The notes below the pieces were generated by a model. The model made no database searches, was not told the DNA's origin, and saw nothing but the letters and a program-made list of their open reading frames with translations. Made by a program: the position numbers and the translations under genes. Shown one piece after another: positions 3,646 through 63,940 of a stretch of 64,000 bases of DNA (its first letter is position 1; each line of letters starts with the position of its first letter). Origin of the DNA: Coriobacteriaceae bacterium (lineage in GTDB: Bacteria; Actinomycetota; Coriobacteriia; Coriobacteriales; Eggerthellaceae); contig SUUE01000001.1 of assembly GCA_015062685.1 (NCBI GenBank), forward strand, positions 85,704 to 149,703. The letters are read 5' to 3'.

Positions 3646-3648
3646 GAT

Positions 3649-5629: not shown

Positions 5630-5693
5630 CGGACGCGCGGAGCGCGCCCCTACATGACGTTTCGGAGCTTATACCGGAAAGCCTCTGCAAAAC

Positions 5694-5721: not shown

Positions 5722-5743
5722 CTCGTTCGCTGAAAGCTCGGCG

Positions 5744-9240: not shown

Positions 9241-9433
9241 GTGGCCGTCTCCTTTCGTTCGGTATGCCCCTAATTATAAGATGATGTCATACATTCTATT
9301 TGGAAATCTTCGATTGGATGGACGCGCGGAGCGCGCCCCTACGGGCAACCGCCAATCACACGAGCGCGCACGTAGCGCGCTCCTACAAGTGGTATCATGC
9401 GCTCTGTTCAAACGAGATGAGAGAGAGGCATCT

Positions 9434-10291
9434 ATGGCAGAACAAGATCCTTCGAATTGCAATGGAGTTTGCAGCGGCTGCAGTTCGGCTAGCTGCGGCG
9501 AGCGGACGGAGCCCAAGAAGCCGACCGCCCGCGCCAACGTCAAGCACGTCATCGGCGTCGTATCCGGCAAGGGCGGCGTCGGCAAGTCCCTCGTGACGAG
9601 CCTCCTGGCCGCCGAGATGGCGCGCAAGGGGTTCAAGGTGGGCATCCTCGACGCCGACATCACGGGCCCTTCGATTCCCAAGACGTTCGGCATCAAGGGG
9701 CGCCTGTCGGCTGACGAGGACGGCATCAACCCCGCGCTCACGGACAGCGGCATCAAGGTCATGTCGCTCAACCTGATGCTCCCGCAGGACGACATGCCCG
9801 TCGCATGGCGCGGCCCCGTCATCACCGGCATCCTCAACCAGTTCTGGAACGAGACCAACTGGGAAGACGTCGACTACATGTTCGTGGACATGCCCCCGGG
9901 AACGTCCGACGTGTTCCTGACGGTCATGCAGTCGTTCCCGCTCGACGGCATCGTTTCGGTGTCGGCTCCGCAGGAGCTCGTCGCCATGATCGTGGGAAAG
10001 GCCGTTAACCTCGCACACGACATGAACGTGTCGGTGCTCGGCCTGGTGGAGAACATGGCGTACTTCAAGTGCGACGAGTGCGGCAAGGAGCACTTCGTGT
10101 TCGGCGAGCCCCAGGGCAAGACCGTCGCCCGCCGCTACCAGATCCCCGCATACGCGACGCTCCCGATGGATCCCGCGTTCGCGCGTCTCTGCGATGCGGG
10201 CAAGGTCGAGGAATACGACGTCGACAAGGCACTCGACCCCATCATCGAGCAGATCGAGGCCGTTGCGGCCCGCAAGGACGCAGCCGAATAG
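9434..10291 (+). CDS. Mrp/NBP35-family ATP-binding protein (iron-sulfur carrier type)
   Basis: N-terminal CNGVCSGCSSASC cluster, GVVSGKGGVGKSLVTSLLA deviant Walker A, YMFVDMPPGTSDVFLT. Confidence 0.93.
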   Translation: MAEQDPSNCNGVCSGCSSASCGERTEPKKPTARANVKHVIGVVSGKGGVGKSLVTSLLAAEMARKGFKVGILDADITGPSIPKTFGIKGRLSADEDGINPALTDSGIKVMSLNLMLPQDDMPVAWRGPVITGILNQFWNETNWEDVDYMFVDMPPGTSDVFLTVMQSFPLDGIVSVSAPQELVAMIVGKAVNLAHDMNVSVLGLVENMAYFKCDECGKEHFVFGEPQGKTVARRYQIPAYATLPMDPAFARLCDAGKVEEYDVDKALDPIIEQIEAVAARKDAAE

Positions 10292-12638: not shown

Positions 12639-12716
12639 TTGATTATTCCCTCCATCCTATTCCCGAAACCACGGCGGTCCCAGTTTTGACCGCGGGACAT
12701 CATGACATACCTATCG

Positions 12717-35371: not shown

Positions 35372-35439
35372 GCCCTACCCGTCTTCTCCTGCTTCCCGCG
35401 AGCTCCGAGCCATTCCCGAAGCACGTTTCTGGTGTTCGT

Positions 35440-37641
35440 TTAATCGCTCCTCACGAGCTCGGCGTAAACCCCGTCGAGCGCCATTAGCTCCTCATGCGTG
35501 CCGCGCTCAGCCACGCGCCCGTGGTCGAGCACGATGATCTCGTCGCAATCTCGGATCGTCGAGAGCCTGTGCGCCACGACGATGCACGTAATCTCGCGCC
35601 TGCGAATTGCCTTGATGACCCTCTCCTCTGTCTTGGCGTCGAGGGCGCTCGTTGCCTCGTCCAAGATGGCGATGGTCGGGTCCTGGGCCAGCACGCGAGC
35701 GATCTCGAGGCGCTGCAGCTGACCGCCCGAGAAATTGCGCCCGCCTGGGAGCACGCGCCCATGGTAGCCGTCCTCGCGCGAGAGGATCTCGTCGTGGATG
35801 TCGGCATCGCGACACGCCATAATGACCTCGAAGTCCTCGATCGAGCCGTCCCACAATGCCACGTTTTCCCTAATGGTGCCGTCGAACATCGAGATGTCCT
35901 GGTCCACGACGGCAATAGACCCGCGTAACTGCTCGTGCGGGATGTCCCCGAGCAGCTTCCCATCGAAGCGGATCTCGCCTTCCCACGGCTTGTACAGGCC
36001 GCTTATGAGCTTGGCGATGGTCGACTTGCCCGAACCCGAACCGCCCACGAGGGCGATCCACTGACCGGGTTCCGCATGGAGGTCGAGTTCCGCGACGGTC
36101 GGCTTCTCGAGCCGCGAGTAGCCGAACGTCAGGCCCTTCACGTCGATGGCGCCCGAGAGCTTGTAGAGGCCCGTCTGCGGCACGTCGCCATCGCCCGCGT
36201 CGAGGGCTTCCGACGCCGCCTTCGATTCCAAGCCGGTCATGACGTCGGGCTCGTATTTGAGGACGTCCTGCACGCGCTCCATCTCCGTCCGCGCTTCCTG
36301 GATGGTCTGTCCCAAGTTCACGAGTGAATTCACTGGCGCCATGAACGCGGAGAGGAAGCCCTGGAAAGCGAGCAGCATGCCAGCCGTGAACTCGCCGTTC
36401 ATGATGAGCATCGTGCCCACCATGAGCACGGCAACGTTCGCCAGCTGCACGAGCAGCCCGGGCACCGCCCCGAGGTAGGCGTTCAGCTTCGCGAAACGCG
36501 ACATGCCATTGCTCACGAGCGCCTGCATGCCGCTCCACCGCTCGAAGAAGCCCTCCTCGGCGCCCGATGCCTTGATGGTCTCGACCATGTCGATGCCGGC
36601 AACCGTGGTTGCGCCCAGCCTGCCTGCGTCGCGCACCTGCTGCCGCATGATGTTCACGCGCTTGTTGGAGATGTAGCGTGCCAGGAACGCGTTCAGCACG
36701 ACCGTCCCCACGCCCACGAGCGCCAGGGGCACGCTGTAAACCAGCATGACGATCAGGTAGAGGATGATGAGGAGGCTGTTCAAGACCGCGGGCGCGAGCT
36801 GCTGCACTACGGTCATGGCGATCGTCTCGTTGGCAGCTTGCCGCTGCTGCAAGTCGCCCACGTGGCGCTGCGCGTAGAATTCCACGGGCAGGTGAAGCAG
36901 ATGCCAGAAGAACTGCGATGCTGCAACGGCTTCGAACTTGCCGCGTATCTTAAGCAGGTAAATAGCGTTCGCGAACGAGACGATGCATTGCACGAGGGCC
37001 ATTATGGCCAACGTCACCACGAGCAAGGTGAGCGCCGGGCCGTTGCTGCCCGCGTTGCCGAGAACAGCATCGGCGAACACGCGTGACATGGCCGAGTTGA
37101 CGATGCCGACAATGGACAGGATGGTCGTTGCCAGCGCCACGAACGCGATCGGCCCCGCCATGCCGCGCAACCGCTCGCGCACGAACTCAAGCGTGGAAGG
37201 CGGCTCGCCCGCGGGTTCGAAGTTATCGCCCGGATGCATGATGAGCGCGATGCCGGTGAACGATTCGTCGAACTGCTCGATGGGCACCCTCACCTGGCCA
37301 CGCGCCGGGTCGTTCAGATAGGCGAACTTCCCATTGTTGGAGAAGCCCGTGAGCACGACGAAGTGGCTGAAGTTCCAGAATATGATGCAGGGCAGCTCGG
37401 CATTCGCCTGCAACCCCTCAAGGTCGAACGTGTAGCCGTCGCATTCCATGCCATACGAGCGCGCCGCACGCATGATGTTGACCGCCTTGCTGCCATCGCG
37501 CGACACGCCGCACGCCGAACGCGCCTCCTCGAGCGGTATCCAGCGCCCGTAGTGCGCGAGGATCATGGTCAGGCAGGCGGCACCGCACTCGGTGGCCTCC
37601 ATCTGCATGACCTGGGGGACGTTTCGGATACGGCGGGCCAT
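35440..37641 (-). CDS. NHLM/NHLP-type peptidase-containing (C39) ABC exporter
   Basis: QMEATECGAACLTMILAHYGRWIPLEE C39 Cys motif, WNFSHFVVLTGF His, then ABC ATPase GGSGSGKSTIAKLISG. Confidence 0.92.
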   Translation of the reverse strand: MARRIRNVPQVMQMEATECGAACLTMILAHYGRWIPLEEARSACGVSRDGSKAVNIMRAARSYGMECDGYTFDLEGLQANAELPCIIFWNFSHFVVLTGFSNNGKFAYLNDPARGQVRVPIEQFDESFTGIALIMHPGDNFEPAGEPPSTLEFVRERLRGMAGPIAFVALATTILSIVGIVNSAMSRVFADAVLGNAGSNGPALTLLVVTLAIMALVQCIVSFANAIYLLKIRGKFEAVAASQFFWHLLHLPVEFYAQRHVGDLQQRQAANETIAMTVVQQLAPAVLNSLLIILYLIVMLVYSVPLALVGVGTVVLNAFLARYISNKRVNIMRQQVRDAGRLGATTVAGIDMVETIKASGAEEGFFERWSGMQALVSNGMSRFAKLNAYLGAVPGLLVQLANVAVLMVGTMLIMNGEFTAGMLLAFQGFLSAFMAPVNSLVNLGQTIQEARTEMERVQDVLKYEPDVMTGLESKAASEALDAGDGDVPQTGLYKLSGAIDVKGLTFGYSRLEKPTVAELDLHAEPGQWIALVGGSGSGKSTIAKLISGLYKPWEGEIRFDGKLLGDIPHEQLRGSIAVVDQDISMFDGTIRENVALWDGSIEDFEVIMACRDADIHDEILSREDGYHGRVLPGGRNFSGGQLQRLEIARVLAQDPTIAILDEATSALDAKTEERVIKAIRRREITCIVVAHRLSTIRDCDEIIVLDHGRVAERGTHEELMALDGVYAELVRSD

Positions 37642-38181: not shown

Positions 38182-38469
38182 GGCAACCCTCTCCCGCCTC
38201 TTCGACCGGTATTATCTCGCGCTACGCCAAAACAGCAGATGATAGCGCGCAATGAAATAATAATACCTGAACGGCCCCTACGCTAACTAACATAACGTTT
38301 ACAATTTGAGTCTTGTTATCCTTCGGGCGGCGCGCCCATGGGCCGGCGAGCGATCGCGAAACAAATCGCTTACGACTCGCGTGACGCCTTCTGCCGACTC
38401 ATTTCCCGTATTACTATAGGCAGTAAGCGCGCCAATTTCAGCGCTAGCAGCCAACATATGGGGTGCCGC

Positions 38470-41109
38470 ATGAAGACTTCGTCCAAAAAGCAGCTATCGA
38501 AGCTATTCTGGGGGCCGATGGCCAGCCTCGAACTCTCGAAACGCGTGGTGACGCTCACGTTCACGGTCGTCGCGATCGCGTCGCTCTCGTTCTGCCAGCT
38601 TGCATTCTTCCCGGTGGCCGAAGTGGGCGGCGACCAGGTGTACGTCCTCTTGACCATTGCGCCGCTCCTGATGGGCGCCATCCTGTTCGGCCCCCTCATG
38701 GGGCTTTGCCTCGGATTGTACGCGGGCACGGTGCTCTTCATCCACGCGAACGTTCTGCCGCTCGACTACTACGAGTACTACTATCTCACGGGCCCCCTCA
38801 GCTCACTCGTCTTGTTCACGTGCGTGGGCGCCGTAGCGGGGTTCGCATTCCATTTCATATCCACCCGTAAGCTCTCTGCCGCGGTAAGGGGCGCCCTCGT
38901 CATCTTGTTCTGCATGTTCGCCTCGGTCGTCGTAAGCGGCGTGCTCGTTGCACTCGTCATCTCCGCGAACACCGCGCTGGGCAGCCTGCAGTTGTCGAAC
39001 GACGAGCTCTTCATCTCCCAAACGGGAGTGATCATCCAGATGGTCATCGATGGCGTGGCGGCATCGGCCGTCTGCCTCGCGGCCAACGCCATAGCTAAGC
39101 GCGTCTCCCGCACCGGTGCCAAGCGGAAACTGTCCTCCGTGTTCCAGAACTGGATGATTTTGGTATCTGCCATCGTGTTCATGGTAACGAGCTCCGCCAT
39201 CTTCACGCTCGAGTCGCTCAATTGCTACAACAAAGCGCAGGAGAACATGCGTAGCGAGGTTGCCTACCTCGCCTCCCAGCTCGAAACATCGGACGACGAG
39301 GGCACGCTCTCTATCGACCCGAAGCGACTGCTGACGGGCTACAGCGTCGACCTCGACGGATCCGTTTTGTTAACTGACCTGTCGGGCACGATACTCGCGA
39401 CTGACGATCCCGACAGATGGCCCGTCGGGGAATCGTACTCAGAGCTGAGCGGCTACAGCAACCAAGCGATCGCGGAATACTACAACGTCGAATACTACTC
39501 CGAAAGCTCCTGCCTCGTGCTGAAAGTGCTGTCGGAGATGGAATACGCTCAGGAGATGCAGCTTCGCGATGCCGACGGCCGCGTGATGACCCAGCCCGTT
39601 TACGCATACAGCGAGTCGTACGGCGCAGGATATGCGGTGATGATGCGTGACACCGCAGCGGTCTTCGCCACACGCTCCGGCACCATGACAGCCGCGACCG
39701 TGCTTGCTGCGCTGCTCATCGCCGCGATTGCCGCGCTCGCGAACGGACTGCTTCGCAGAATGGTGGTGCGCCACATCGACGACACCAATTCCTCACTCGA
39801 GAAGATCACGTACGGCAACCTCAACGTCCGCGTTGACGACCAGGACACGATCGAGTTCGATTCGCTGTCCTCGGGCATCAACGCTACGGTGGTGGCCCTC
39901 AAGGAGACGATCGACGAAGTCGAGCACAGGAACGCCCAGGACCTCGCCACTGCCAAGGCCATTCAAGAGGACGCGCTTCCCAAGGACTTCCCCGCGTTCC
40001 CCGACATCGACAAGTTCGATATCTACGCGTCCATGAAGACGGCCAAGGAAGTCGGCGGCGACTTCTACGACTTCTTCGAGATCGAGGGCACGACGAAGAT
40101 CGGATTCGTCATGGCCGACGTATCGGGCAAGGGCATCCCCGCAGCGCTCTTCATGATGACTTCCAAGACGCAGCTGCGCAACCACATGCAGGCGGGCATG
40201 TCCGTCGACGAGGCTGTCAACGCAGCCAACCACCAGTTGTGCCTGGGCAACGAGGCGGGCATGTTCGTGACTGCGCTCGTGTGCATGCTTGACTACGAAA
40301 CGGGACACATCGAGTACGTCAACGCCGGGCACAACCCGCCGCTCGTGCTCCACGACGGCGCCTGGAGCTGGAAAACCGAGGTATCGGGCATGCCGCTCGG
40401 CCTGTTCGACGGCATCCCCTACGACCTGCTCGAGTTCGACATGGCGCCCGAGGACACGTTCTACCTCTACACGGACGGCGTAACCGAGGCCATGAACGTG
40501 AGCGACGAGCTGTTCGGCGAGGAGCGCCTTGAGCAAACGCTCGGCCACTACAGCGGCATGAACCCTCGCTCGATCGGCGTCGGCGTGCGCCGCGCGCTCA
40601 CGGACTTCACGCAGGACGCCGAGCAATCCGACGACATCACGATGCTCGCGCTCAAATACGGCGTGCCGCCCGAGGAGAAGGCCGTTATGGTGCTCGAGGC
40701 GAAGCGCAACCAGCTGGTGCACGTGGTCAACTACATCCACGCCGAGCTCTACCGCAGGCGCGCCCCCAAGTCGGTTTACCCGCAGTTAGACCTGGCCTGC
40801 GAGGAGCTGTTCACCAACGTGTGCAGCTACGCCTACCCTGACGCCACCGAGGAGAACCCGGGCGCGGTGCGCATCCAGTTCGAGTACACCCCCACGCCGC
40901 CCACGCTCACCGTGCAAATTTCCGACGACGGCGTGCCGTATAACCCGCTCGAGAAGGAAGACGCCAAGACGGCCGACCAGTTCGACGACGTCATGGACAT
41001 CCCGATCGGCGGCTTGGGCATCCTGCTCGCCAAGAAGAACGTGGACGAGATGACCTACGAGCGCAAGGACGGCACGAGCAACGTGGTCACGCTCAAGAAG
41101 AGCTGGTAG
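38470..41109 (+). CDS. Membrane SpoIIE-type PP2C phosphatase fused to RsbW-type HATPase (paralog 1)
   Basis: KEVGGDFYDFF, VMADVSGKGIPAALFM, LYTDGVTEAMN, SDDITMLAL (PP2C); LACEELFTNVCSYAYPD, SDDGVPYNPL, GGLGI (HATPase). Confidence 0.9.
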   Translation: MKTSSKKQLSKLFWGPMASLELSKRVVTLTFTVVAIASLSFCQLAFFPVAEVGGDQVYVLLTIAPLLMGAILFGPLMGLCLGLYAGTVLFIHANVLPLDYYEYYYLTGPLSSLVLFTCVGAVAGFAFHFISTRKLSAAVRGALVILFCMFASVVVSGVLVALVISANTALGSLQLSNDELFISQTGVIIQMVIDGVAASAVCLAANAIAKRVSRTGAKRKLSSVFQNWMILVSAIVFMVTSSAIFTLESLNCYNKAQENMRSEVAYLASQLETSDDEGTLSIDPKRLLTGYSVDLDGSVLLTDLSGTILATDDPDRWPVGESYSELSGYSNQAIAEYYNVEYYSESSCLVLKVLSEMEYAQEMQLRDADGRVMTQPVYAYSESYGAGYAVMMRDTAAVFATRSGTMTAATVLAALLIAAIAALANGLLRRMVVRHIDDTNSSLEKITYGNLNVRVDDQDTIEFDSLSSGINATVVALKETIDEVEHRNAQDLATAKAIQEDALPKDFPAFPDIDKFDIYASMKTAKEVGGDFYDFFEIEGTTKIGFVMADVSGKGIPAALFMMTSKTQLRNHMQAGMSVDEAVNAANHQLCLGNEAGMFVTALVCMLDYETGHIEYVNAGHNPPLVLHDGAWSWKTEVSGMPLGLFDGIPYDLLEFDMAPEDTFYLYTDGVTEAMNVSDELFGEERLEQTLGHYSGMNPRSIGVGVRRALTDFTQDAEQSDDITMLALKYGVPPEEKAVMVLEAKRNQLVHVVNYIHAELYRRRAPKSVYPQLDLACEELFTNVCSYAYPDATEENPGAVRIQFEYTPTPPTLTVQISDDGVPYNPLEKEDAKTADQFDDVMDIPIGGLGILLAKKNVDEMTYERKDGTSNVVTLKKSW

Positions 41110-41124: not shown

Positions 41125-42894
41125 CTAGATGCGCAACGTGATGATGTTCAAGTCAAGCGTGCTGACGTAGGCAACGTCCTTCGCCATGCCGCATACCAGC
41201 TTGATGCCCATGTTCACGCTCGGATCCTCGCTCGCGTTGAGTTCGATCCACTTCACGGGATCGAACGCGCGGCCGTTGTCGCGCAGGCGCAGAACCCACT
41301 CCTCAGACAGGTGCACGATGCGGATCTCCAGCAGGCCGCCCTTCCCTTCCGCGAACGAGTATTCGGCAACATTGGACCCCAGTTCTTCGATGAACAGCAC
41401 CACGCGGTAGCGCGTCTTCTCGTCGGCTCCCCACGCGCGACAGAAGCTGCCGGCGCGCTCGCACGCCGGCACGACGTGATCCATGTCGCTTATAGCGATG
41501 TCGAGCACCTCGTCGTCCGGCGCTCCGAAGGGCTCCTTCAGGAACACGAAGTCCTTGGCCCTTGTTGGCAGCCCGTGCTTCATGGCGGCAGCAAGAGCGA
41601 AGATGGCGATCGTGGTAAGAGTCTCGCCCACGGGATACGCCACCCACACGGCATCGGAATCGAGGATGCCATGAAGCGCGAGCGCAGGGATGGCTACGAA
41701 CACGAAGTTCTGCAGGAAGCAATAGCATGCCGACAGCCCCGTGCGACGCATGCCCTGCGTATAGTTAACGAACGCGTTGTTCACGCCGAAGAGAATGACG
41801 CTGAAGGCGTAGAAATGCAGGCCGCGCGTGGCGAGGCGCACCATCTCCTCGCCGCTGGAGCTCCCGAAAAGGGGCGCGATGACGCCCGCGAACGCGAAGA
41901 CGACGACGGCGAGCGCCACACCGAGCGCGAACGCCGTGCGCATAGCGACCCTCACGAGCTTCTCCGCAGAGGCGCGGTCCTGCTCGCCGAGCACCATTCC
42001 CGCGATCATGCCCGTCGTCATGCCAACGCCGATGAGCACGCACGAGACGAACCCCTGCACGACATTCAGGACGCCGAGGGCGCCGACGGCCATGGTGGAT
42101 GCCGCGCTTGCGAGCATGACCTGGTTCAGGGTGAAGCTGCGCGCCATGGTGGAGACGTTGCCCACGGCGGAGGGGCAGCCTGAAACCAGGATGTGCTTCA
42201 AGTCGTCCAGATTCAGGCCCTTGAGCGAGAACTTGAATATGATGTCGCGCTTCCTGAAGTGGAGCAGCATGATAACGAGCGCGACGAGGTAACTGATGGT
42301 CGTAGCCAGACCCATGCCGAACATTCCGCCACCCAGCACGAGCGCGTTCAGGAGGTCGCCCGCGATGTCGAGGACGGTCATCGTGAGAACCGCTACGATG
42401 ACGCGCATGGAATCGCCGTCGAGACGCATGAGCGAGTTGAACTCGAAGAGCAGTATCGTCGCCGGGAACGAGAGCGCGAGGCCCCGCAGGTAGTCGCCGA
42501 CCAGAGGCTGCAAATCGGAAGAGGCGCCGCGGGCGCCGAGGAGCGAAGAGATGTCCTGCGTGAAAACGAGCACGACGAACACGAGCACCGCCGACACGAA
42601 CACCGTGACGACCATGCTCACCGAGAAGACGTTGCGTGCTCGATTCACGTCGCCCTTGCCCAGGTTCATGGCGCAAATCACCTGCGTGCCCTCAGTCAAG
42701 AGTCCGCTCAACGCGGTGACGAGACTCGTTATCGGTGCCGACAGGCTGTAGGCGGCCATGCATTCCGGGCCGAGGAAGCGGCCAATCACGATGCCGTCGA
42801 TGACGATGCCGAGCATAGTTACCACGACGGCAGCCGTCATGCTCACGAGGCTCGTGCGGAAGACCTTCTCGATGATCGATCCCGTGCTCTCCAT
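41125..42894 (-). CDS. MATE-family transporter with C-terminal RsbW-like HATPase domain
   Basis: N-terminal MATE TM region; C-terminal RVVLFIEELGSNVAEYSF, LRLRDNGRAFDP, NMGIKLVCGMAKDVAY. Confidence 0.85.
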   Translation of the reverse strand: MESTGSIIEKVFRTSLVSMTAAVVVTMLGIVIDGIVIGRFLGPECMAAYSLSAPITSLVTALSGLLTEGTQVICAMNLGKGDVNRARNVFSVSMVVTVFVSAVLVFVVLVFTQDISSLLGARGASSDLQPLVGDYLRGLALSFPATILLFEFNSLMRLDGDSMRVIVAVLTMTVLDIAGDLLNALVLGGGMFGMGLATTISYLVALVIMLLHFRKRDIIFKFSLKGLNLDDLKHILVSGCPSAVGNVSTMARSFTLNQVMLASAASTMAVGALGVLNVVQGFVSCVLIGVGMTTGMIAGMVLGEQDRASAEKLVRVAMRTAFALGVALAVVVFAFAGVIAPLFGSSSGEEMVRLATRGLHFYAFSVILFGVNNAFVNYTQGMRRTGLSACYCFLQNFVFVAIPALALHGILDSDAVWVAYPVGETLTTIAIFALAAAMKHGLPTRAKDFVFLKEPFGAPDDEVLDIAISDMDHVVPACERAGSFCRAWGADEKTRYRVVLFIEELGSNVAEYSFAEGKGGLLEIRIVHLSEEWVLRLRDNGRAFDPVKWIELNASEDPSVNMGIKLVCGMAKDVAYVSTLDLNIITLRI

Positions 42895-44314: not shown

Positions 44315-44554
44315 TTAGAAACGGGTGCCGCAACCGTCGCAAGCCCACAAGCCGGTGAACGAGTCCAGGTTCACATTGGAGCCGCCGCACACAGGGCAGG
44401 ACACAAGACCGCCCCAGCTGCCGCCCGAAATCGCTTCGATTTGCTCGTCGGAAAGCTCCACGCCCTCTTCCTCGGCAAGCCGCCTCAGGTCGTCGGCGTT
44501 CCTGCACGTACGCACTTTTTCCTGCTGCTTTAGCGTCAGTTCCTCAAACTTCAT
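44315..44554 (-). CDS. Candidate RiPP/bacteriocin-type precursor with Nif11/GG-type leader and CxxC...CxxC core
   Basis: MKFEELTLKQQEKVRTCRNADDLRRLAEEEGVELSDEQIEAISGG|SWGGLVSCPVCGGSNVNLDSFTGLWACDGCGTRF; GGGAGGGG SD before ATG 44554. Confidence 0.72.
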   Translation of the reverse strand: MKFEELTLKQQEKVRTCRNADDLRRLAEEEGVELSDEQIEAISGGSWGGLVSCPVCGGSNVNLDSFTGLWACDGCGTRF

Positions 44555-44754: not shown

Positions 44755-46347
44755 ATGCGTAGGGGGAAGACATATCAACAAAGCTTCCGAATTCGGAAAG
44801 GCGATTTCGCAGGCGCGTATGCGTTTGCCAATGACCTGCTGACGCGCAAGGACGTAAGCAAGGAGACGGCGCATGAAACCCTCCTTGTTTTCGAGGCTCT
44901 CCTGCAAAAGCTCGTTGACTCGGGGGTGGACGAGAACACCGACCTGAGAATCTCCGGCATGGACAAGCTCGGCGACTTTCGCATCAAGATCATGTTCGAA
45001 GGGCCCATGTTCGTTCCCGACCACGATACGGCGGACTCCATCGAGGACCGCATCCTGAGCGGCTATGACGACAGGATCGACTGCAGCTACTATTCGGGCT
45101 GTAACACGATTACCATCTCGGTGAGCAGGAGGAACCGATCGCTGTTCTCCTGTGCCATCGCGTTTCTATGCGCAATCGTGGTGTACCTCCCGCTATCTTG
45201 TCTGCTCGACGCGGACGCACAGAAAGAGCTGCTCACGGACTACGTGTTCCCTGTCGAGAAGGTATACGCCAACGCCATGCTCATGATAGGCGCACCCATG
45301 ACGTTCTTCTCCCTGCTGAAGAACCTCACGAACACCTACGTCATGGCACAGATCAACTCTGGTCTGCGGCAGCTCCAAGCACGGACGCTCGCAACCTCCG
45401 CGGTCGCGATCATTCTGGCGTTCGCGGTGTTTCTCGTTTTTGTCATTCCGCTGTCCAGCATGGAGACGGGACTCTACGGCTCCGGTATCACCCACCTCGA
45501 GTACCTCAATACGTCGTTTTCCGAAGTCGTCGGCACAATCGTGACCCCTAGCATTTTCGAGCCCTTCGAGGCCGTCTCGCCCGTTCCGTTGATGGTCGTC
45601 GCCCTGCTTTGCACCTACGCCTTGTGCTCGGCCGGCAAGTACTTCGACCCCCTGAGGCATGCCATGATGGCCTGCTACACGCTCTTCTCCCGCATGCTGC
45701 ACGTCTCCATCGCCGCGCTCCCGTTCTTCTTCTTCCTCTCGATGCTGGACGTGCTGCTCGAGGACGGTCTGATTGTCATCATCGAACTCTTCGGCTACTT
45801 CGTGGCCGCTTCACTGGGCGTCTTGCTGCTATTCGGCACCTACGCCATCAGGCTGCGCGCCCACGACATCAAGATCATCCCCTTCGTGCGGAACATCATC
45901 CCCCTTCTCCGCGAGAACCTTAGAATCGGGTCGGTCATCAACGCTGCGCCGTACAACACCAGGTACTGCGCGAAGAACATGAAGATGAGCAGAAGCATGC
46001 TCGAACGCAACCTCCCGCTGCTCGCTGAAATCAACCTCGACGGCAACTGCTTCGTGCTCATGTTTTTCGCGCTGGCCATCTCCTTCGTCATGGGCAAGTA
46101 CCTGACGTGGGTGAACATCGTCGGCCTGGGGCTGCTCGTGCTGCTCCTCTCGCTCGGCGCGCCGAACCAGCCGGGCAGCATCTTGATCGGCATGCTGATT
46201 CTCACCACCTACCTGAACTCAAGTAACGCGCTGTGCACGGCCATCTACCTGGAGGCGTTCTTCGGCAGCACGCAGAACCTCATCAACGTCATCGGCGACA
46301 TTGTCATGGTAGCCATCGAGGACAAGAAGGAGAAAGCCCTCGCTTAA
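44755..46347 (+). CDS. SDF-family dicarboxylate/amino acid:cation symporter with N-terminal HATPase-like domain (paralog 1)
   Basis: C-terminal NLDGNCFVLMF, GAPNQPGSILIGMLILT, TQNLINVIGDIVMVAI; about 125-aa soluble N-terminal extension. Confidence 0.8.
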   Translation: MRRGKTYQQSFRIRKGDFAGAYAFANDLLTRKDVSKETAHETLLVFEALLQKLVDSGVDENTDLRISGMDKLGDFRIKIMFEGPMFVPDHDTADSIEDRILSGYDDRIDCSYYSGCNTITISVSRRNRSLFSCAIAFLCAIVVYLPLSCLLDADAQKELLTDYVFPVEKVYANAMLMIGAPMTFFSLLKNLTNTYVMAQINSGLRQLQARTLATSAVAIILAFAVFLVFVIPLSSMETGLYGSGITHLEYLNTSFSEVVGTIVTPSIFEPFEAVSPVPLMVVALLCTYALCSAGKYFDPLRHAMMACYTLFSRMLHVSIAALPFFFFLSMLDVLLEDGLIVIIELFGYFVAASLGVLLLFGTYAIRLRAHDIKIIPFVRNIIPLLRENLRIGSVINAAPYNTRYCAKNMKMSRSMLERNLPLLAEINLDGNCFVLMFFALAISFVMGKYLTWVNIVGLGLLVLLLSLGAPNQPGSILIGMLILTTYLNSSNALCTAIYLEAFFGSTQNLINVIGDIVMVAIEDKKEKALA

Positions 46348-51116: not shown

Positions 51117-51355
51117 GCGCGCGCCACCCAGCTCTCACGGGCCGGTATGTAAACGGTTGCTAAACCATAGGCGTATCGCTACCAGGTCAGCTCGGCCGAC
51201 TACGCCTAACAGCGGCCCCCGCGCTAATAATCAACAACATCGAAACGCGCTACCAGCGCAGCCAGTTGCGGTTGCCATGATGCATTATGTTCAATGCGCA
51301 CATGTTGGAGGTTTACGCCCGCACCTCCTATACTGAGCATGTCAGGAGGAGCCGC

Positions 51356-53950
51356 ATGGCAGAAGCGGAGAAAACAACATCCAGGATAGCTTCCCTGTTC
51401 TGGGGGCGCGTGGCCCCCCTGAGCCTTCGAATCCGTATCGTGGCGCCGGTGTTCGCGATGGCCGTTATCGTGGCGCTCTCGTTCTGCCAGCTGGGCTTCT
51501 GGCCCATTGGCGAAGTGGCGGGGCGAGCGGTCTACATCATGCTGATATTGGTCCCTCCCGTCGTGGGCGCCCTTCTGTTCGGACCGGTCACGGGCGCATT
51601 GCTTGGGTTGTTCGCGGGCGCGATGGCGTTCACGCACGCGCAAATGATGCCGCTCGACTTCTACGAGAACAACGTCATGACGCCGATGAACACGTTCGGA
51701 ATGCTCACGCTGATGGGCCTTCTCTCCGGCTTGCTGTTCAAATTCGCCTTGCGCAACGACCCGAGGGGCGGCAAGCGCACGGGCATTATCGTAGGCGCCT
51801 GCATTGCCCTATCGGCCGTGGCAAGCGGCTTCATCATGGTGAGCATGACAGCCCAGTTCGGCGGCCAAAAGCTTTCGGCAATCATGGAGTACCTGCTCAT
51901 GACCCCGGAGGGCATGATCTCCCAAATGACCGTCGACGCGGTGGCGCTCATCGCCCTATGCCTCGTGGTGGACGCGATGCTCCTCTCGCTGACCACGCGC
52001 AACCCGAGCGAACGCAAGCTGCTCACCGTGTTCAGCGGCTGGATGATCACCATTTCCGCTATCGTGTTCATGCTTGCGAGCGCGTTCATCTTCACGACGA
52101 TCACCATCCAGGAGGACGAGAAGACGAGCGAAACGATGATGAGCGAAGCCCAGTACCTCGCCGGCCAGCTGGATGCGCACCCGGATTCCGACCCCTCCAC
52201 GGTGCTCGATGGCTACTCCATGGAGGACTACGGCAACGTCGTCGTCACGGACAAGCTCTACACCATCCTTGGAACCAACAATGAAGAGCGGTTCCCCGTG
52301 GGCGATTCGTTCGTGGACGACATTGGCTATGCCGAGGCGTTCCCCAACCCGGAAGACCCCTCGAGCAACCTGCTGCAGTTCATCGTCGACAGCGACGAGA
52401 CCTCCCAGATCCAAACGTACACGGCTGAAGGCACCTGGACCATGGAGTTCTCCTATATATCGGTAGCGGCATGCGAAAAGGGGTACGTGGCGGAAGTTCG
52501 CACCACGGAAATGGTCTTCCCATCAAGGTTCAGCACGCTGGCCTCGACGACGCTGCTTGCGTTCCTGCTGATCTTCGCCACGGCACTCGTGGCATCGTGG
52601 CTCTTGAGGTCCGACATCGCGAAGCACATCGACGAGACGAACGCGTCGCTGAAGAAGATCACTGACGGCAACCTGGACGAGCGCGTGTCCGTGCGCGACA
52701 GCAGCGAGTTCGCATCGCTATCCGCCGGCATCAACGCGACGGTGGCGACGCTCAAGGAAACGATCGAGGAAGTGGAGCAGAAGAACGCGCAGGAGCTGCT
52801 CACCGCGAAGGCCATCCAGCAAAGCGCGCTCCCCTCCTCCGAGCCGACTTTCCTGGGCATCGACGCGTTTGACCTGTATGCTTCGATGGATGCGGCACGC
52901 CAGGTGGGCGGCGATTTCTACGACTACTTCGACCTGGGCGGCGGGCGCATCGGCTTCGTGGTGGCCGACGTCAGCGGCAAGGGCATACCCGCGGCGCTGT
53001 TCATGATGGCGGCCAAGACGGAGATCCGCGCAGCAATGGAAACGAACGCGGACCTTGCGGAGGCCATCGGCATCGCCAACCGGAACCTGTGCGAGGGCAA
53101 CGAGGCCGAGATGTTCGTCACCGTGTTCGCCGGCGTGCTCGAATACGAAACCGGCAAGCTGACCTACGTGAACGCCGGACACAACAAGCCCCTCGTGATG
53201 CGCGGCGGCGAATGGTCCTGGCTCACCGAGCGGTCGGGCCCCTACATGGGCTCGTTCGATTGGATCGAGTACAAGCAGTTCGAGACGCAACTGCAACAGG
53301 GCGACGAGCTATTCGCCTACACCGACGGCGTGAACGAGGCGTTCAACGCGGAAGGCGAGCTCTACGGCAACGACCGGCTGGAGGCCTTCCTGTCGACGCA
53401 CGGCGAGCTGCACCCGCGACGGCTTCTGCGCGCCCTGCGCGCCGAGCTCGGCGGCTGGTCGTTCGGCATCGAGCAGTCAGACGACATCACCATGCTCGCG
53501 CTCATGTTCGGCATACCGCCCGAGCACGGCGCCTCGCTGACGACGACGGCTGAGCTCGAGAACTTCGAGGAAGTCGAAAGCTTCGTCCTGAAGAAGCTCG
53601 ACGAGGCCGGCTGCCCGTCGAAAGAGGCCAACCACGTGATGATCGCGGTCGAGGAGCTGGTCGTGAACGTATGCAGCTACGCATACCCCGACGCCACCCC
53701 GAGCGACCCCGGGCTGCTGTACACGCACATTACGCTGCAGACGCGGCCGAACGCCGTCATCGTCGAGATCAGCGATACCGGCGTGGCGTTCAACCCGCTC
53801 GAACAGGAAGACCCCGAACGCCCCGCAAGCGTCGAGGATGCAAAGATCGGGGGCCTCGGCCTGTTCATGACCAAGAAGCTCATGGACAAGGTGGAATACG
53901 TGCGCGAAGGCCTGACGAACACCACCACCGTCACGAAATACTGGGAATAG
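51356..53950 (+). CDS. Membrane SpoIIE-type PP2C phosphatase fused to RsbW-type HATPase (paralog 2)
   Basis: RQVGGDFYDYF, VVADVSGKGIPAALFM, AYTDGVNEAFN, SDDITMLAL; IAVEELVVNVCSYAYPD, SDTGVAFNPL, GGLGLF; AGGAGGA SD. Confidence 0.9.
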   Translation: MAEAEKTTSRIASLFWGRVAPLSLRIRIVAPVFAMAVIVALSFCQLGFWPIGEVAGRAVYIMLILVPPVVGALLFGPVTGALLGLFAGAMAFTHAQMMPLDFYENNVMTPMNTFGMLTLMGLLSGLLFKFALRNDPRGGKRTGIIVGACIALSAVASGFIMVSMTAQFGGQKLSAIMEYLLMTPEGMISQMTVDAVALIALCLVVDAMLLSLTTRNPSERKLLTVFSGWMITISAIVFMLASAFIFTTITIQEDEKTSETMMSEAQYLAGQLDAHPDSDPSTVLDGYSMEDYGNVVVTDKLYTILGTNNEERFPVGDSFVDDIGYAEAFPNPEDPSSNLLQFIVDSDETSQIQTYTAEGTWTMEFSYISVAACEKGYVAEVRTTEMVFPSRFSTLASTTLLAFLLIFATALVASWLLRSDIAKHIDETNASLKKITDGNLDERVSVRDSSEFASLSAGINATVATLKETIEEVEQKNAQELLTAKAIQQSALPSSEPTFLGIDAFDLYASMDAARQVGGDFYDYFDLGGGRIGFVVADVSGKGIPAALFMMAAKTEIRAAMETNADLAEAIGIANRNLCEGNEAEMFVTVFAGVLEYETGKLTYVNAGHNKPLVMRGGEWSWLTERSGPYMGSFDWIEYKQFETQLQQGDELFAYTDGVNEAFNAEGELYGNDRLEAFLSTHGELHPRRLLRALRAELGGWSFGIEQSDDITMLALMFGIPPEHGASLTTTAELENFEEVESFVLKKLDEAGCPSKEANHVMIAVEELVVNVCSYAYPDATPSDPGLLYTHITLQTRPNAVIVEISDTGVAFNPLEQEDPERPASVEDAKIGGLGLFMTKKLMDKVEYVREGLTNTTTVTKYWE

Positions 53951-54003
53951 CCCACAACGCCGCCGTGGCGGCCCATCTCGGGAACGACCCTAGCCGCTTT
54001 ATA

Positions 54004-54306
54004 CTAGCGCTCGATTTCGAGGATGTCGACGAGGCCGGTGACGTCGAAGACCTCCATGACCTCGTCGTTGGGGTTCGTTATACGCATCGAGCCGCCCTTG
54101 CGCTGCATGCTCTTCGCCTGCGAAACAACCACGCGCAAGCCCGCCGAAGCCACGTAATCGAGGTTGGACAAGTCCAAGACGAGGTCGCTCGCATCACCGG
54201 GAAGGGCCGCGAAAGCCGCTTCGAGCTTGGGAGCCGTTACAACCGTGAGGTTTCCGACGATGGCTATGGTCGCGTTTGCGCCGTCGATTGTCGTGTTAAT
54301 CTCCAC
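54004..54306 (-). CDS. STAS-domain anti-sigma factor antagonist-like protein
   Basis: LVLDLSNLDYVASAGLRVVVSQAKSMQRKGGSMRITNPNDEVMEVFDVTGLVDILEI. Confidence 0.9.
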   Translation of the reverse strand: MEINTTIDGANATIAIVGNLTVVTAPKLEAAFAALPGDASDLVLDLSNLDYVASAGLRVVVSQAKSMQRKGGSMRITNPNDEVMEVFDVTGLVDILEIER

Positions 54307-55878: not shown

Positions 55879-56097
55879 AGCCCTTCCTTCCTCGCCGTTT
55901 GCCGCTGCATCTCTATACGCACTAAAGGCGTCATCGTTTCAGCGCCTTTTATCCTACGCAGTTAAACGCTCACTTGGACGCAACGCCGCCTCGTGTTCGA
56001 GACGGAATTCTAACTATAATGAGTTTAAGGAAGTGAACCGCGATAGCGCGCCGCTGCGCTTCCGTCATCCTAAGCAGCCATGCAAAGGAGATACCCG

Positions 56098-57381
56098 ATG
56101 GACGACATGCCCAGCTCAAATGAAGCAGCAGTCGATTACTCCCTGCTCGAAAAGGTAAACCCGGTGTTTCTCACCGCGAAGATGACGCTTTTCCAGCTTG
56201 CAGCCAATGGAGACCCCGATGCGGCCGCGCTCGCAGAGAGCATGGGCCTGACACTGGAGGAAACTCAGAACAGCGCGAACACCACCACCACGCCCGAGCA
56301 AGTCCTCGGTGGCACCATCATGCTCGAAGCCCGTTATCGCACGATGGCGAGCCTGGCGGAAAGCTCTGGTTACACGCTAGTCGACCTGCCATGCGGCTAC
56401 ACCCCGCGAGCGATTACGTTCGCGAAGAAGGGGCTTCCCTATTACGGGCTGGATCTCCCCGTAGTGATTCGTGAGATCTCGAGCCAGGTGAATGCGATGG
56501 TTTCACCCGAGGAGCGCGAGTTCATCCACTACAAGGAAGTAGATGCAACGAACTACGCCTCGCTCGAAAAGGCGGTGAGCGACATCGACGGCGAAGTCTG
56601 CATAAACACCGAGGGACTGCTCATGTACTTCACCGATTCCGAAGCCGGGGCGCTCTGCAACAACATCCGCCGTATCCTGAAAATGAAGGGTGGCTGCTGG
56701 TACGTGGCTGATCCGGAATCCTCCCTTCAATACATCGCCACCATGCGCGCGCTGGTGGGAGACCGCTTCCTTCAGATCATGCAAAACGCCAAGCAGCAGA
56801 CGAAGGATAAATCTGACGTGGAAATTGGCAAGAACTCCCTGATGGCGAGCCCGGCCGACATAGAAGGCACCACCAAGCGCGCCATGGCCTTCCTCGCCGA
56901 GCACGGCTTGAAGAGGGAGCGCGTCATCGTGGCGGAGCACCTGCCGGAACTGGATTCGCTTTCCAAGATCAGCCCGGAGCAAGCCAACGCCATACGGGAG
57001 GGAATGAGCAGCTGCGCCTACTGGAAGGTCACGCTCGACGAAACCGCACCCACCGTCGAGCTTCCCTCATCCGAGGCGAAGAACTTCACCTTGAACGGCG
57101 CGATACAGAACGGCACCCTGTCCCTCAACTTGTCAGGGCGGCTTGACACCATTTCCGCGCCCACCCTGCTCACCTTCTTCGAGAAGGTCGAGAAAGAGCA
57201 CTCGGTTGAATCCGTCTTGGTGGATTGCAGCAATCTCGAATACGTCTCCTCTGCGGGCCTGCGCGTTCTCGCGATCATGCGCAGGGCTTGCGCAGGGGGC
57301 GTGACGCTCGCCAACTCCAACGAGTTCGTCGCAGACGTCATTGAGCAGACCGGCTTCGGCGCCGTGCTAACGATCGTGTAA
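56098..57381 (+). CDS. SAM-dependent (leucine carboxyl methyltransferase-like) methyltransferase fused to C-terminal STAS domain
   Basis: N-terminal class I MTase with EARYRTMASLAESSGYTLVDLPCGYTPRAITFAKKGLPYYGLDLP; C-terminal LSGRLDTISAPTLLTFF...VLVDCSNLEYVSSAGLRVLAIMRRA. Confidence 0.82.
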   Translation: MDDMPSSNEAAVDYSLLEKVNPVFLTAKMTLFQLAANGDPDAAALAESMGLTLEETQNSANTTTTPEQVLGGTIMLEARYRTMASLAESSGYTLVDLPCGYTPRAITFAKKGLPYYGLDLPVVIREISSQVNAMVSPEEREFIHYKEVDATNYASLEKAVSDIDGEVCINTEGLLMYFTDSEAGALCNNIRRILKMKGGCWYVADPESSLQYIATMRALVGDRFLQIMQNAKQQTKDKSDVEIGKNSLMASPADIEGTTKRAMAFLAEHGLKRERVIVAEHLPELDSLSKISPEQANAIREGMSSCAYWKVTLDETAPTVELPSSEAKNFTLNGAIQNGTLSLNLSGRLDTISAPTLLTFFEKVEKEHSVESVLVDCSNLEYVSSAGLRVLAIMRRACAGGVTLANSNEFVADVIEQTGFGAVLTIV

Positions 57382-58834: not shown

Positions 58835-58888
58835 AGGCGTCGTTGACGGCATGAGCCAACAATGGTCACGACGCGAAGGAGTCGCTCC

Positions 58889-60907
58889 ATGCTCTTTTCC
58901 GAGATGCTAGACCGCGGGCAAGGCAGCGCCACTGCCATCGTCGATTCGCAGGGGCTTGTCACGTACGGCGGTTTTCGCGCCGCCGTGGCCGGGTTCGCCG
59001 CGCACCTGCACGACATGGGCCTCGCCAAGGGCGACCGCGTGGCGCTCTGGGGATACAATTCGGCGAACTGGCTCGTAGCCTTCTTCGCCATCGTGCGCGC
59101 GGGTGGCGTGGCGCTGCTCCTTAACTACAGCATGGGCATCGACGATGCGGCCGAGCTGCTAAGGTCAGCGAACGCGCGCTTCCTCGTCTGCGGCGACAAC
59201 GGCCAGACCAAGCGCCGCGACGATGCAATCGAGGCGCTCGCCGAAGCCGCGGGCATCGAGCTTTCACACTGCGTGGACGCAAGGAGCGATTCCCGCGACC
59301 TCGCGGACGCCTACGCGGGAGCAGAGAGCCTCGCCGAGCAGCGCCAGCCAACCGAAGAAGCCGACACCGCGTTCATCATCTTCACGAGCGGTACGACATC
59401 GTCCCCCAAAGCCGTGTGCATCTCCCAGCGAGCCCTCGCCGCCGACGCGCAGGCCCTCATGGCGGGCCTCGAGGGAACGATGGGCGGCTCCATCTGCGTC
59501 GCGGTGCCACTCTTCCACATCCTTGGCCTGCTCACCAGCTTCGCCTACCTCACGCTGGGATCCACGGTGTGCCTGCCCGCAAGCTACCGGGCCGACGCAC
59601 TCATCACGATGGTGGGCGAAAACCAGGTGAGCGACATGGCCGCGGTGGGAGCCGTATACCAGGGCCTTGCAAGCGCCGACGGATTCGGGGAAATGGTCGC
59701 GCCCCATTTGCGAACATGCCTCATCGCAGGCGGCATGTCCACTCCGGTGCAGATGATGCGCCTCGAGCTGGATTTCACGAACGCCACCTTCATCAACATG
59801 TACGGCCAGAGCGAAGGCGCGCCCCTCACCATGGTACGGCCATCCGACCTCGTAGAGCTGCGCGCGAGCACGGTCGGGCGCGCCGTCGACGGCGTCGAGC
59901 TGCGCATCGCGGGCCTAGACGGCTCGCCGCTGCCGAATGGCGAAGTGGGCGAAGTCTTGGCCCGCGGCGTTTGCCTCATGAACGGCTACGAGGGGCTGCC
60001 CGCAGACGCCCAGGCCATCGACGCGGGCGGTTGGCTTCACACGGGGGACCTGGGCTTTCTTGACCCTGCGGGATACCTGCACCTTGCCGGGCGCATCAAG
60101 GACGTCATCATCCGCGGCGGCGAGAACATCTCCCCTGCCGAGATCGAGGCGGAGCTCACCACCATCGAGGGCGTGTCAGACGCGAAGGTCATGGGCGCGC
60201 CGCACGCCATCTACGGCGAGAGCGTTGAGGCCTGCGTGACCACACATGGCGCGGCGGCGTTTGACGAGGGACACGCGCTCGAGGTCCTTCGCTCGCGCAT
60301 GCCCCGCTACAAAGTTCCCGCGCACGTCTTCCCCTATAGCGAATTTCCACTCAACGTAAACGGGAAGCTCGACCAGCGCGCGCTCTACATTGACATGCTG
60401 GGGAGGCTTCTCGAAATCGAGGTGGACGAGGAGCTCGCGAGCGGCATCACGGTGTTCGAGATTACCGTCAAGAACTCCAGCTACGCCATCGGGCCGGTGG
60501 CCGCGCTCGTGGACGAGCTGGCTGCCTCCATCGGGTACGGGCGCCGCCGGGCCTCTAGAATCCGGCTCGCGGTCGAGGAGATGCTCATCGAGCGCATCAT
60601 GTATGCCTACTCGGGCGCGGGCGACATCCGCGTGCGCGTTTCGCTCATGCCGGAATGGCTTCGCGTGTCCTTCAGCGACGACGGCGCCGAGTACATAATC
60701 GACAAGCGCAGGGACAAGTCCACGAGCGCTCGCATCATCCTAGGCTCTGTTGACAACTTCCACACGGAGAGGCACGAGGGCAAACCCGAGTACTGCATGG
60801 ACTTCCTCTACGACGGCGACCTGGATGTGAAGGGGTTCCTGAAGCGCAATAAGGAGAACGTCGAGAAATGGGAGGACTTCGGCGGGGCTCTGGAGTCACT
60901 GCCGTAG
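58889..60907 (+). CDS. AMP-binding (acyl/aryl-CoA ligase-like) enzyme with C-terminal HATPase-like domain
   Basis: IIFTSGTTSSPKAV, LHTGDLGFLDPAGYLHLAGRIKDVIIRGGENISPAEIE; C-terminal RIRLAVEEMLIERIMYAYSG...SFSDDGAEYIID; AAGGAG SD. Confidence 0.87.
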   Translation: MLFSEMLDRGQGSATAIVDSQGLVTYGGFRAAVAGFAAHLHDMGLAKGDRVALWGYNSANWLVAFFAIVRAGGVALLLNYSMGIDDAAELLRSANARFLVCGDNGQTKRRDDAIEALAEAAGIELSHCVDARSDSRDLADAYAGAESLAEQRQPTEEADTAFIIFTSGTTSSPKAVCISQRALAADAQALMAGLEGTMGGSICVAVPLFHILGLLTSFAYLTLGSTVCLPASYRADALITMVGENQVSDMAAVGAVYQGLASADGFGEMVAPHLRTCLIAGGMSTPVQMMRLELDFTNATFINMYGQSEGAPLTMVRPSDLVELRASTVGRAVDGVELRIAGLDGSPLPNGEVGEVLARGVCLMNGYEGLPADAQAIDAGGWLHTGDLGFLDPAGYLHLAGRIKDVIIRGGENISPAEIEAELTTIEGVSDAKVMGAPHAIYGESVEACVTTHGAAAFDEGHALEVLRSRMPRYKVPAHVFPYSEFPLNVNGKLDQRALYIDMLGRLLEIEVDEELASGITVFEITVKNSSYAIGPVAALVDELAASIGYGRRRASRIRLAVEEMLIERIMYAYSGAGDIRVRVSLMPEWLRVSFSDDGAEYIIDKRRDKSTSARIILGSVDNFHTERHEGKPEYCMDFLYDGDLDVKGFLKRNKENVEKWEDFGGALESLP

Positions 60908-62344: not shown

Positions 62345-63940
62345 CTACATAGTTTCTAGCCGTTCTCGCTCTTCCTCGCTCGCGCTCTCGACGGCTGCCA
62401 CCATGCTACTGATGACGTTGATGATGTTTTGAAGGCCGCCGCAGAAAAGTTCGAAGCACAAAGCCATCTGGACGTCGGCCTTGGAGACCAGGTACGTCGA
62501 GACTATCAAGATGCCGATGAGAATAGAGCCCGGCTGGTTGGGAGAACCGGACGACATGAACAACACGATGAGGCCCATGATCGCAATGCTCAGCCACGAC
62601 CCCTCGCCATTTGCGAACATGATATAGGCCACGCCGACGAACATGAGGATGTAGCAGTTACCATCCAGATTGGTCTGCGCCGTTACCGGGAGCTCCTTTT
62701 CCAGCCTCTCCCGCTTGAAGCCGAAATGCTCAACGCAATAGCGCACGTTGTAGGGCACCGCATCGATGATGGAACCGATCTTGTAGTTCTCCTTCACCAG
62801 CGGCCATAGCTTCCTCGCGAACTCCCGCACGTTAATGCGCTTCGCCTTCAGTCTTAACGCGTACACGGCGATCAAGAGCAGCGCGCACAAGAATATGTCT
62901 GCGGCCACGGACATGACCTGCAGGAAGGCCTCGATCTTGTTCGTCAGCAGGATTTCCAGGAAAAGCAGGAAGCACGCCAGAGGGAAAAAGTTCATAACTA
63001 TCGCGAGTATTGCCGAGAACAGGTCGTAGCACGCGTCGATCGCGCGCTTCACCGAACCGAAGCTCTTCCCCACGGTGACGAGCGCGCCGACGACCAGAAG
63101 CGCCACAACGATCATGGGAACAGGAGAAACGGTCATAAAGGGCTCAAGGATATTCGACGGGATTATCTTGTCCACGGCCGACGCCAGCGACCAGTTGGCA
63201 ATACCCTGGTCGATTCTCAGCTTCTCGCCGGTAATCCCCCCGAACGCAATAACGTATGCGACAGCCGCGACGAGGGCAACCACGATTGCAACGACGGACG
63301 AGCGCAGCGAGGTCATGAACAGCTTGCGCGAAGTTGAATTGCGCTCCGACAGAATGAAGGAGTCGGATGCGTTCTTCAGCAGCGAGAACAGCGTCATCGG
63401 CCCGCCCACCATCAACACGGCGTTGGTGAACAGGTTCTCCAGGGGCGCCACCCACTGTTCCGCCAGCTGCTGCTGGCCCGCATCGTCAAGCACGAGGGAG
63501 AGCACGAGGCCCACGACGATGGCCGCGCCGGCGGCGATGAGGTTCGGGAGGAGGAAGGCGCGTGCGCTTTGGCTCACGGAAATCTTGATGACGTTGTCGC
63601 CAGCCAGATACGAGGTCGACAGCTTGTCGGAAAACGCCTCGATGATCTTGGCATCGGGATCGTCAGACGCACCACCCTCGGGCAGAGAGAAGCGTTTGCC
63701 CGGAAACATCAGCTTTATATCCGCGCTCCCGAGCTTGACGATGCTGCTGATCTCAATCTTTGCCGCCGCGTCGTCTGCTTCGGAAGCGACCACGCGGAAA
63801 ACGGCCTCAAACAGCGCCATCGTCTCTGAGGAGATAGCATTGCTGGCAAGACGTTTATCGAGCGTACCCGTTACGAAAGCCTTGGCCTGGGGAAGGCTTT
63901 TCTCGTCCAAGTCTATTTCGATAGTCTTAGTTCGAGCCAT
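62345..63940 (-). CDS. SDF-family symporter with N-terminal HATPase-like domain (paralog 2)
   Basis: NLDGNCYILMF, GSPNQPGSILIGILIVSTYL; paralog of 44755..46347 along its full length. Confidence 0.8.
   Translation of the reverse strand: MARTKTIEIDLDEKSLPQAKAFVTGTLDKRLASNAISSETMALFEAVFRVVASEADDAAAKIEISSIVKLGSADIKLMFPGKRFSLPEGGASDDPDAKIIEAFSDKLSTSYLAGDNVIKISVSQSARAFLLPNLIAAGAAIVVGLVLSLVLDDAGQQQLAEQWVAPLENLFTNAVLMVGGPMTLFSLLKNASDSFILSERNSTSRKLFMTSLRSSVVAIVVALVAAVAYVIAFGGITGEKLRIDQGIANWSLASAVDKIIPSNILEPFMTVSPVPMIVVALLVVGALVTVGKSFGSVKRAIDACYDLFSAILAIVMNFFPLACFLLFLEILLTNKIEAFLQVMSVAADIFLCALLLIAVYALRLKAKRINVREFARKLWPLVKENYKIGSIIDAVPYNVRYCVEHFGFKRERLEKELPVTAQTNLDGNCYILMFVGVAYIMFANGEGSWLSIAIMGLIVLFMSSGSPNQPGSILIGILIVSTYLVSKADVQMALCFELFCGGLQNIINVISSMVAAVESASEEERERLETM

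Follow-up and report, generated by a model that had tools for sequence, protein, structure and literature searches.

A MATE-type exporter whose C-terminus is a domain of the RsbW/SpoIIAB anti-sigma-kinase fold is encoded in the window (that is, the whole stretch of 64,000 nucleotides that was analysed), and it belongs to a family of such fusions in which the usual ATP lid of the kinase has been lost. Many members of the family lie close to genes for STAS proteins and SpoIIE-type phosphatases. The reading that we favour, with moderate confidence, is that the mostly non-catalytic RsbW-like tail serves as a docking site for a STAS protein, so that a partner switch would gate export. The features of the exporter gene are as follows:

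41125..42894, minus strand: MATE exporter with an RsbW-like C-terminal domain (589 aa, ATG start; from the ORF, Pfam and AlphaFold)
41575..42879, minus strand: MATE transport domain, residues 6-440 (nearest solved folds PfMATE, VcmN and DinF-BH; ClbM is also among the matches)
41128..41517, minus strand: RsbW/SpoIIAB-like GHKL domain, residues 460-589 (from Pfam, the tail model and structure matches)
41371..41394, minus strand: N-box FIEELGSN, residues 501-508 (Glu504, of catalytic type, and Asn508 present)
41257..41286, minus strand: G1 box LRDNGRAFDP, residues 537-546 (Asp539, Gly541 and Phe544 present)
41203..41217, minus strand: degraded G2/ATP-lid motif VNMGI, residues 560-564 (GGLG[IL] in kinases)

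The Pfam search of the 41125-42894 product showed that a MatE pair and HATPase_c_2 are combined in one protein: MatE was matched in two stretches with 100.8 bits (gathering score 24.9), and HATPase_c_2 covered residues 470-588 with 48.3 bits (cut-off 27.4; 52.3 bits in the whole-genome scan). The sequence-only reading of this DNA had proposed an RsbW-like domain at the C-terminus of a MATE transporter and placed it at 41125-41515, corresponding to residues about 460-589, and both the Pfam scores and the fold comparison (Z 13.4-15.1) bear this out. The exporter stays below the cut-off of the NCBIfam model TIGR00797 (matE subfamily; 124.2 vs 147.4 bits), which is a naming threshold and no defining property of the MATE fold, and judged by its clear homology it can be regarded as a divergent member. 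The full-length AlphaFold model, for which 26 fusion homologues were used, has high confidence over almost its whole length (mean pLDDT 87.7, pTM 0.86) and shows the MATE helices and, after them, the secondary structure of a GHKL fold; its 12-helix MATE fold matches MATE structures such as 6hfb and 3wbn at TMt 0.8-0.85. It is established for the family that the C-termini of MATE proteins are cytosolic. A SulP-type transport domain with a C-terminal STAS domain was not found by Pfam, which gave MatE and the HATPase_c_2 tail. A role in anti-phage defence was also considered and rejected, neither the exporter nor the adjacent phosphatase having a PADLOC match.

When the tail was modelled alone (pLDDT 85.4), its best structural matches were UsfX, RsbW and SpoIIAB, with Z of 15.1, 14.9 and 14.4, respectively, and a best Foldseek E of 1.4e-7, so that the HATPase_c_2-type fold for which the earlier reading had looked to AlphaFold is indeed seen. 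An ordinary histidine-kinase domain was rejected, since such domains reach Z of 7.8 at most, about 6-7 Z units below the anti-sigma kinases. At the sequence level, SpoIIAB and RsbW were the nearest solved sequences to a profile of seven tails; this profile was needed, as a single tail sequence gave no real match among solved structures. No RsbW equivalog model of NCBIfam matched the tail at E 0.001, although the two SpoIIE-fused domains encoded in the window do match the NCBIfam RsbW model, under its cut-off.

The possibility that a sequencing or assembly error had joined two ORFs, raised by the earlier reading itself, is ruled out by dN/dS, by 44 homologous fusions and by the full-length, 80% identical copy that a congener has. 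A third copy, in a further genome of the genus, is present as two pieces with 78-80% identity. Comparison of the window gene with L022 gave a dN/dS of 0.14 in the MATE part and of 0.21 in the tail, from which both parts are seen to be under purifying selection. The fusion loci were collected in Coriobacteriales, where several families including Atopobiaceae have them, and in Clostridia, including Oscillospiraceae MAGs; 44 of the collected loci were read in detail. According to the sampling tables, from which the counts per genome were taken, a fusion-sized match occurs in about 19 of the 297 genomes that were sampled from the order and in about 20 of the 291 Clostridia sampled. The choice of query mattered for the collection: a two-sequence alignment used for the contig scan returned seven named loci only, and a full-length profile applied to phylum-wide sampling returned almost only plain MATE genes.

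In the domain tree, the tails stand on one side of a branch and the other HATPase_c_2 domains on the other (SH-aLRT 98). The fused MATE domains are likewise set apart from the plain MATEs sampled (branch support 91), which is a lead and no proof of a single origin, because a tail profile was used to gather the fused set and that tree contains few plain MATEs from Clostridia. No description of the fusion was found in the literature searched, a coverage from which subscription papers and preprints were excluded. Each component domain is already known, and the combined MatE and HATPase_c_2 architecture, being so frequent, presumably already stands in protein databases under the label of MATE transporters.

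The sequence-only reading had quoted three motifs of the tail and had called the domain intact and catalytically competent. All three are present (residues 501-508, 537-546 and 561-567), together with Glu504, Asn508 and Asp539, but the third, NMGIKLV, is no normal G2 box, VNMGI taking the place of GGLG[IL], and the lid motif is missing and the loop shortened, here and in the other MATE tails, so that the description as intact holds for the first two boxes and fails at the lid. The two lid glycines occur in 0 of 44 MATE tails vs 22 of 22 comparison domains (SpoIIE-fused, STAS-fused and stand-alone RsbW-like domains, whose lid is GGLG[IL] or nearly so). Among the same 44 tails, Glu504 and Asn583 are kept in all, Asp539 in 36 and Asn508 in 29, and the position of Arg538, just ahead of the G1 Asp, is R or K in every one, which is specific to MATE tails. 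That is to say, many MATE-tail relatives are without the Mg-binding Asn, whereas the neighbouring SpoIIE-fused and stand-alone kinases have every motif. In RsbW, Glu49 of the N-box contacts the phosphorylated Ser56 of RsbV (PMC7340262), and Glu504 is by alignment the equivalent of this Glu49. The pattern fits an old subfamily in which the partner-binding face was kept and the usual lid lost.

Catalysis by the tail appears unlikely because of the lost ATP lid. Residual ATP binding or kinase activity of the window tail is possible, as Glu504, Asn508 and Asp539 are retained, and this tail retains more active-site residues than those of many relatives. A tail that acts as an active serine kinase, by which the transporter would phosphorylate a STAS protein and so inform a partner-switching pathway of its transport state, is the strongest of the alternatives to docking, and we still consider it improbable. 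It would agree with the presence of Glu504, Asn508, Asp539, Gly541 and Asn583 in the window protein, with the RsbW/SpoIIAB fold of the tail and with the STAS genes associated with the fusions, but it has to contend with a GGLG lid that is absent from 44 of 44 tails and with tails in similar loci that are missing the N-box Asn (15 of 44) or the G1 Asp (8 of 44). Moreover, the kinase role looks already filled, because genes adjoining that of the exporter encode kinase domains that are intact.

The neighbouring features in the window are as follows:

38338..41109, plus strand: SpoIIE-type PP2C phosphatase with a C-terminal HATPase_c_2 domain that has every motif (in convergent orientation to the exporter, 15 bp between the ORFs)
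44755..46347, plus strand: SDF symporter with an N-terminal domain of about 125 aa like the exporter tail, degenerate RsbW-like (from hhalign)
51287..53950, plus strand: second SpoIIE-type phosphatase with HATPase_c_2 (about 8 kb from the exporter)
54004..54306, minus strand: stand-alone STAS protein of the anti-sigma-factor-antagonist type and candidate partner of the tail (in the alignment, Ser54 takes the position of RsbV Ser56)
56080..57381, plus strand: enzyme-like protein of 433 aa with a C-terminal STAS domain
58862..60907, plus strand: AMP-binding ligase whose C-terminal domain is weakly HATPase_c_2-like (25.0 bits vs cut-off 27.4; 28 bits in the whole-genome scan)
62345..63940, minus strand: second SDF symporter with the same sort of N-terminal domain (from hhalign)

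The phosphatase at 38338-41109 converges on the exporter and shares no operon with it. The product of 54004-54306, to which the sequence-only reading had already pointed, is a STAS protein with the acceptor serine in place, and its gene, 11 kb away, is the nearest stand-alone STAS gene to the exporter of the window. In the congener, a STAS gene whose product is 67% identical to this protein lies 2.2 kb from the orthologous exporter. A second STAS paralogue of the window genome is equally close to the congener's gene; for this reason, the 54004-54306 product is only a candidate partner of the tail, and the genes at 51287-54306 are only possible orthologues of the congener's STAS and SpoIIE genes. 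The N-terminal domains of the SDF symporters are not recognised by Pfam, and profile-profile comparison by hhalign matched them to the MATE tail with 94% probability and E 1.4e-7. A similar SDF fusion adjoins the exporter in the congener and also in the Oscillospiraceae cassette L136, where an SDF symporter with the N-terminal domain is added to the MATE-tail locus, and the symporter at 44755-46347 possibly belongs to the same network as the exporter.

Further genes of the window can be recorded here as observations in their own right. The ligase at 58862-60907 is an adenylating enzyme that carries an anti-sigma-kinase-like tail. The N-terminal part of the 56080-57381 protein looks by eye like a methyltransferase and has no Pfam match, and a 441-aa protein at 60986-62311 (plus strand), also without a Pfam match, has by eye the sequence FHGFCDG, which resembles the HxxxDG motif of condensation/acyltransferase enzymes; together with the ligase, these two possibly form a small biosynthetic cluster under STAS/RsbW control. 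A 79-aa ORF at 44315-44554 (minus strand) combines a leader of the double-glycine type (..LSDEQIEAISGG) with an end rich in Cys, and 7 kb from it, at 33185-37641 (minus strand), two ABC transporters are encoded, one of them of the peptidase-C39 type, so that an exported ribosomal peptide system is a possible interpretation.

The link with STAS proteins and phosphatases was assessed with 40 plain MATE genes as controls, some of them taken from genomes that also have a fusion. A SpoIIE-type phosphatase is encoded within 8 kb of 25 of the 44 fusions and of none of the 40 controls (Fisher 9e-10), and a STAS gene within the same distance of 20 of 44 and 1 of 40, respectively (p 2e-6), p-values which overstate independence because the fusion loci include close relatives. 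AMP-binding or NRPS genes were found within 8 kb of 9 fusions and of no control. Neither STAS nor SpoIIE is present within 8 kb in 17 of the 44 loci, some of which are on short contigs, and some of the nearby SpoIIE genes may act on other outputs. In the window itself, a STAS antagonist and a SpoIIE/RsbU-type phosphatase are both nearby, the SpoIIE gene being directly adjacent. The serine at the position of RsbV Ser56 is kept in 23 of 23 STAS domains found. A STAS connection of the exporter is therefore strongly suggested by the gene neighbourhoods. The sequence-only reading had supposed that the transporter phosphorylates or binds a STAS partner; the counts favour the link as such, and between the two acts, binding by the tail is more likely than phosphorylation, as judged from its motifs.

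In the relatives, the association takes several forms. Compact cassettes of STAS, SpoIIE, an RsbW of 135-144 aa and the exporter occur in Clostridia (L222, L223 and L224), and SpoIIE, RsbW and the MATE-tail exporter are combined in L211 and L219. The order SpoIIE-HATPase, STAS, GH3-type ligase, exporter is seen in L115 and L118, and a GH3 ligase adjoins the fusion in L222 as well. Five loci of a related family have, in order, the exporter, a protein of about 300 aa with no assigned domain, and a SpoIIE-HATPase gene; the conserved protein of about 270-325 aa between the MATE-tail and SpoIIE-HATPase genes lies at 8559-9416 in L111, 8599-9402 in L112, 8505-9482 in L113 and 8603-9559 in L114, and no Pfam match was obtained for the three members tested. 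Two Clostridial proteins, at 11702-13309 (minus strand) of L206 and 8452-10041 (plus strand) of L207, bear STAS and HATPase_c_2 at opposite ends, with an APH-type kinase domain in the middle in L206, and adjoin SpoIIE, STAS and MATE-tail genes. The exporter is located downstream of an NRPS gene in L213, L214, L215 and L218. NRPS-type proteins with a terminal reductase (NAD_binding_4) are encoded beside MATE-tail exporters at 2-6949 (plus strand) of L218, 10941-13940 (minus strand) of L129 and 2234-5998 (minus strand) of L125, and the reductase end of these neighbours suggests a peptide aldehyde or alcohol as the cargo there. More generally, some relatives probably export a non-ribosomal peptide or another compound that an adenylating ligase helps to make.

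The usual output of such a switch was searched for as well. In the window genome, there are seven STAS domains; HATPase_c_2 is fused to SpoIIE or MATE six times, and one RsbW-like protein stands alone, with a STAS gene as its neighbour. A sigma factor of the SigB/F/G type was not found in this genome above the TIGR02980 family cut-off; of the four Sigma70_r2 proteins encoded there, one has the size of a housekeeping factor and the others have 183-199 aa. None of the six Coriobacteriales genomes tested had a SigB/F/G factor above this cut-off, and G026, which is among the six and 99% complete, shows a single sigma factor, yet it has SpoIIE-HATPase, STAS and the exporter. Both Clostridial genomes tested do have such factors, away from the fusion. 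In the 17 genomes checked, no Sigma70_r2 gene lies within 8 kb of the fusions.

The docking reading sets out from the fusion, its fold, lost lid and conservation, from the gene association with its adjoining intact kinase and phosphatase domains and conserved STAS serines, and from this sigma-factor inventory. The exporter tail would be a domain of RsbW/SpoIIAB type that has largely given up catalysis and has kept the N-box face for holding a STAS protein. The SpoIIE-type phosphatase would remove the phosphate from the STAS protein, and an intact RsbW-type kinase, either stand-alone or the phosphatase-fused domain, would put it back; the unphosphorylated STAS protein would then dock on the tail and alter export, instead of a sigma factor being freed. 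The docking, its dependence on phosphorylation, the direction in which transport would change and the cargo are what we infer. Weighing against this reading are the arrangement in the window (a SpoIIE gene outside any operon with the exporter, and 11 kb to the nearest stand-alone STAS gene), the 17 loci with neither gene within 8 kb, other outputs on which some nearby SpoIIE genes may act, and the active-site residues that the window tail retains. As dozens of relatives adjoin the switch proteins of RsbW-type kinases, the bacterium probably uses the switch for control of a pump and not of gene expression.

In a quite improbable variant, the transporter would be the sensor, that is, substrate-driven movement of the MATE part would free or capture the STAS protein through the tail, and the output would be a biosynthetic enzyme or another STAS-binding protein. 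The STAS- and HATPase-tailed enzymes of the window (the STAS-tailed enzyme and the AMP-ligase being example outputs) and the STAS-APH-HATPase fusions beside L206 and L207 would suit it, but no conserved downstream enzyme is common to all fusion loci, and most associated loci consist of phosphatase, STAS and exporter only. Equally doubtful is a tail that is merely a nucleotide-responsive or structural (oligomerising) module with no STAS partner: it would accommodate the conservation of the tail (dN/dS 0.21) despite degraded motifs, and the 17 loci with neither gene nearby, but leaves the SpoIIE and STAS association unexplained.

Beyond the docking reading, a more tentative proposal, to which we give rather less than even chances, is a partner-switching network of gut and rumen bacteria that works independently of sigma factors, in which degenerate RsbW-like and STAS domains are fused to MATE and SDF transporters, AMP-ligases and STAS-tailed enzymes, and a phosphatase/kinase pair would set the production and export of small molecules without transcription. 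Partner switching by RsbW-type kinases is best known for the release of sigma factors. If the docking reading is true, the partner switch would be a post-translational regulator of transport in a large family of two phyla, in genomes lacking the usual sigma factors; the fusion would mark regulated exporters in the non-ribosomal-peptide clusters of gut and rumen bacteria, and the family poses directly the question of a STAS protein that gates a pump.

Compared with RsbW, SpoIIAB and UsfX (PDB 6m37, 1tid, 1l0o and 8ih8), the tail has the same fold over its whole length and keeps the Glu and Asn of the N-box and the Asp and Gly of G1, and, as at sigB and sigF loci, the fusions occur with STAS and SpoIIE-type genes. 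Unlike them, it is fused to a transporter, has lost the GGLG lid and forms a separate branch, in a genome without a SigB/F/G-type factor and with no sigma gene beside the loci checked. The Rv1364c-type or SpoIIE-HATPase fusions (PDB 3ke6, Z 13.7) contain the same kind of domain, and such proteins adjoin the exporter; the SpoIIE-HATPase domains examined differ from the tail in keeping all kinase motifs and in being fused to a phosphatase. On the transport side, the exporter shares the complete MATE fold with the DinF-like PfMATE and with ClbM (PDB 4z3n), at TMt up to 0.85. The MATE chains compared are about 405-490 residues long and for that reason end without an RsbW-like tail, whereas the exporter has 589 aa with it, which agrees with the earlier view that the tail is foreign to normal MATE transporters. 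Several fusion relatives lie within NRPS gene clusters, and in this they resemble ClbM, which we take to be the MATE exporter of the colibactin cluster. The nearest described idea to the fusion appears to be that of the SLC26/SulP anion transporters, which carry a C-terminal STAS domain (PMC8256260): in both cases, the cytosolic side of a transporter bears one member of the STAS/anti-sigma-kinase pair, but in the exporter it is the RsbW-like member, and it is borne by an unrelated transport domain.
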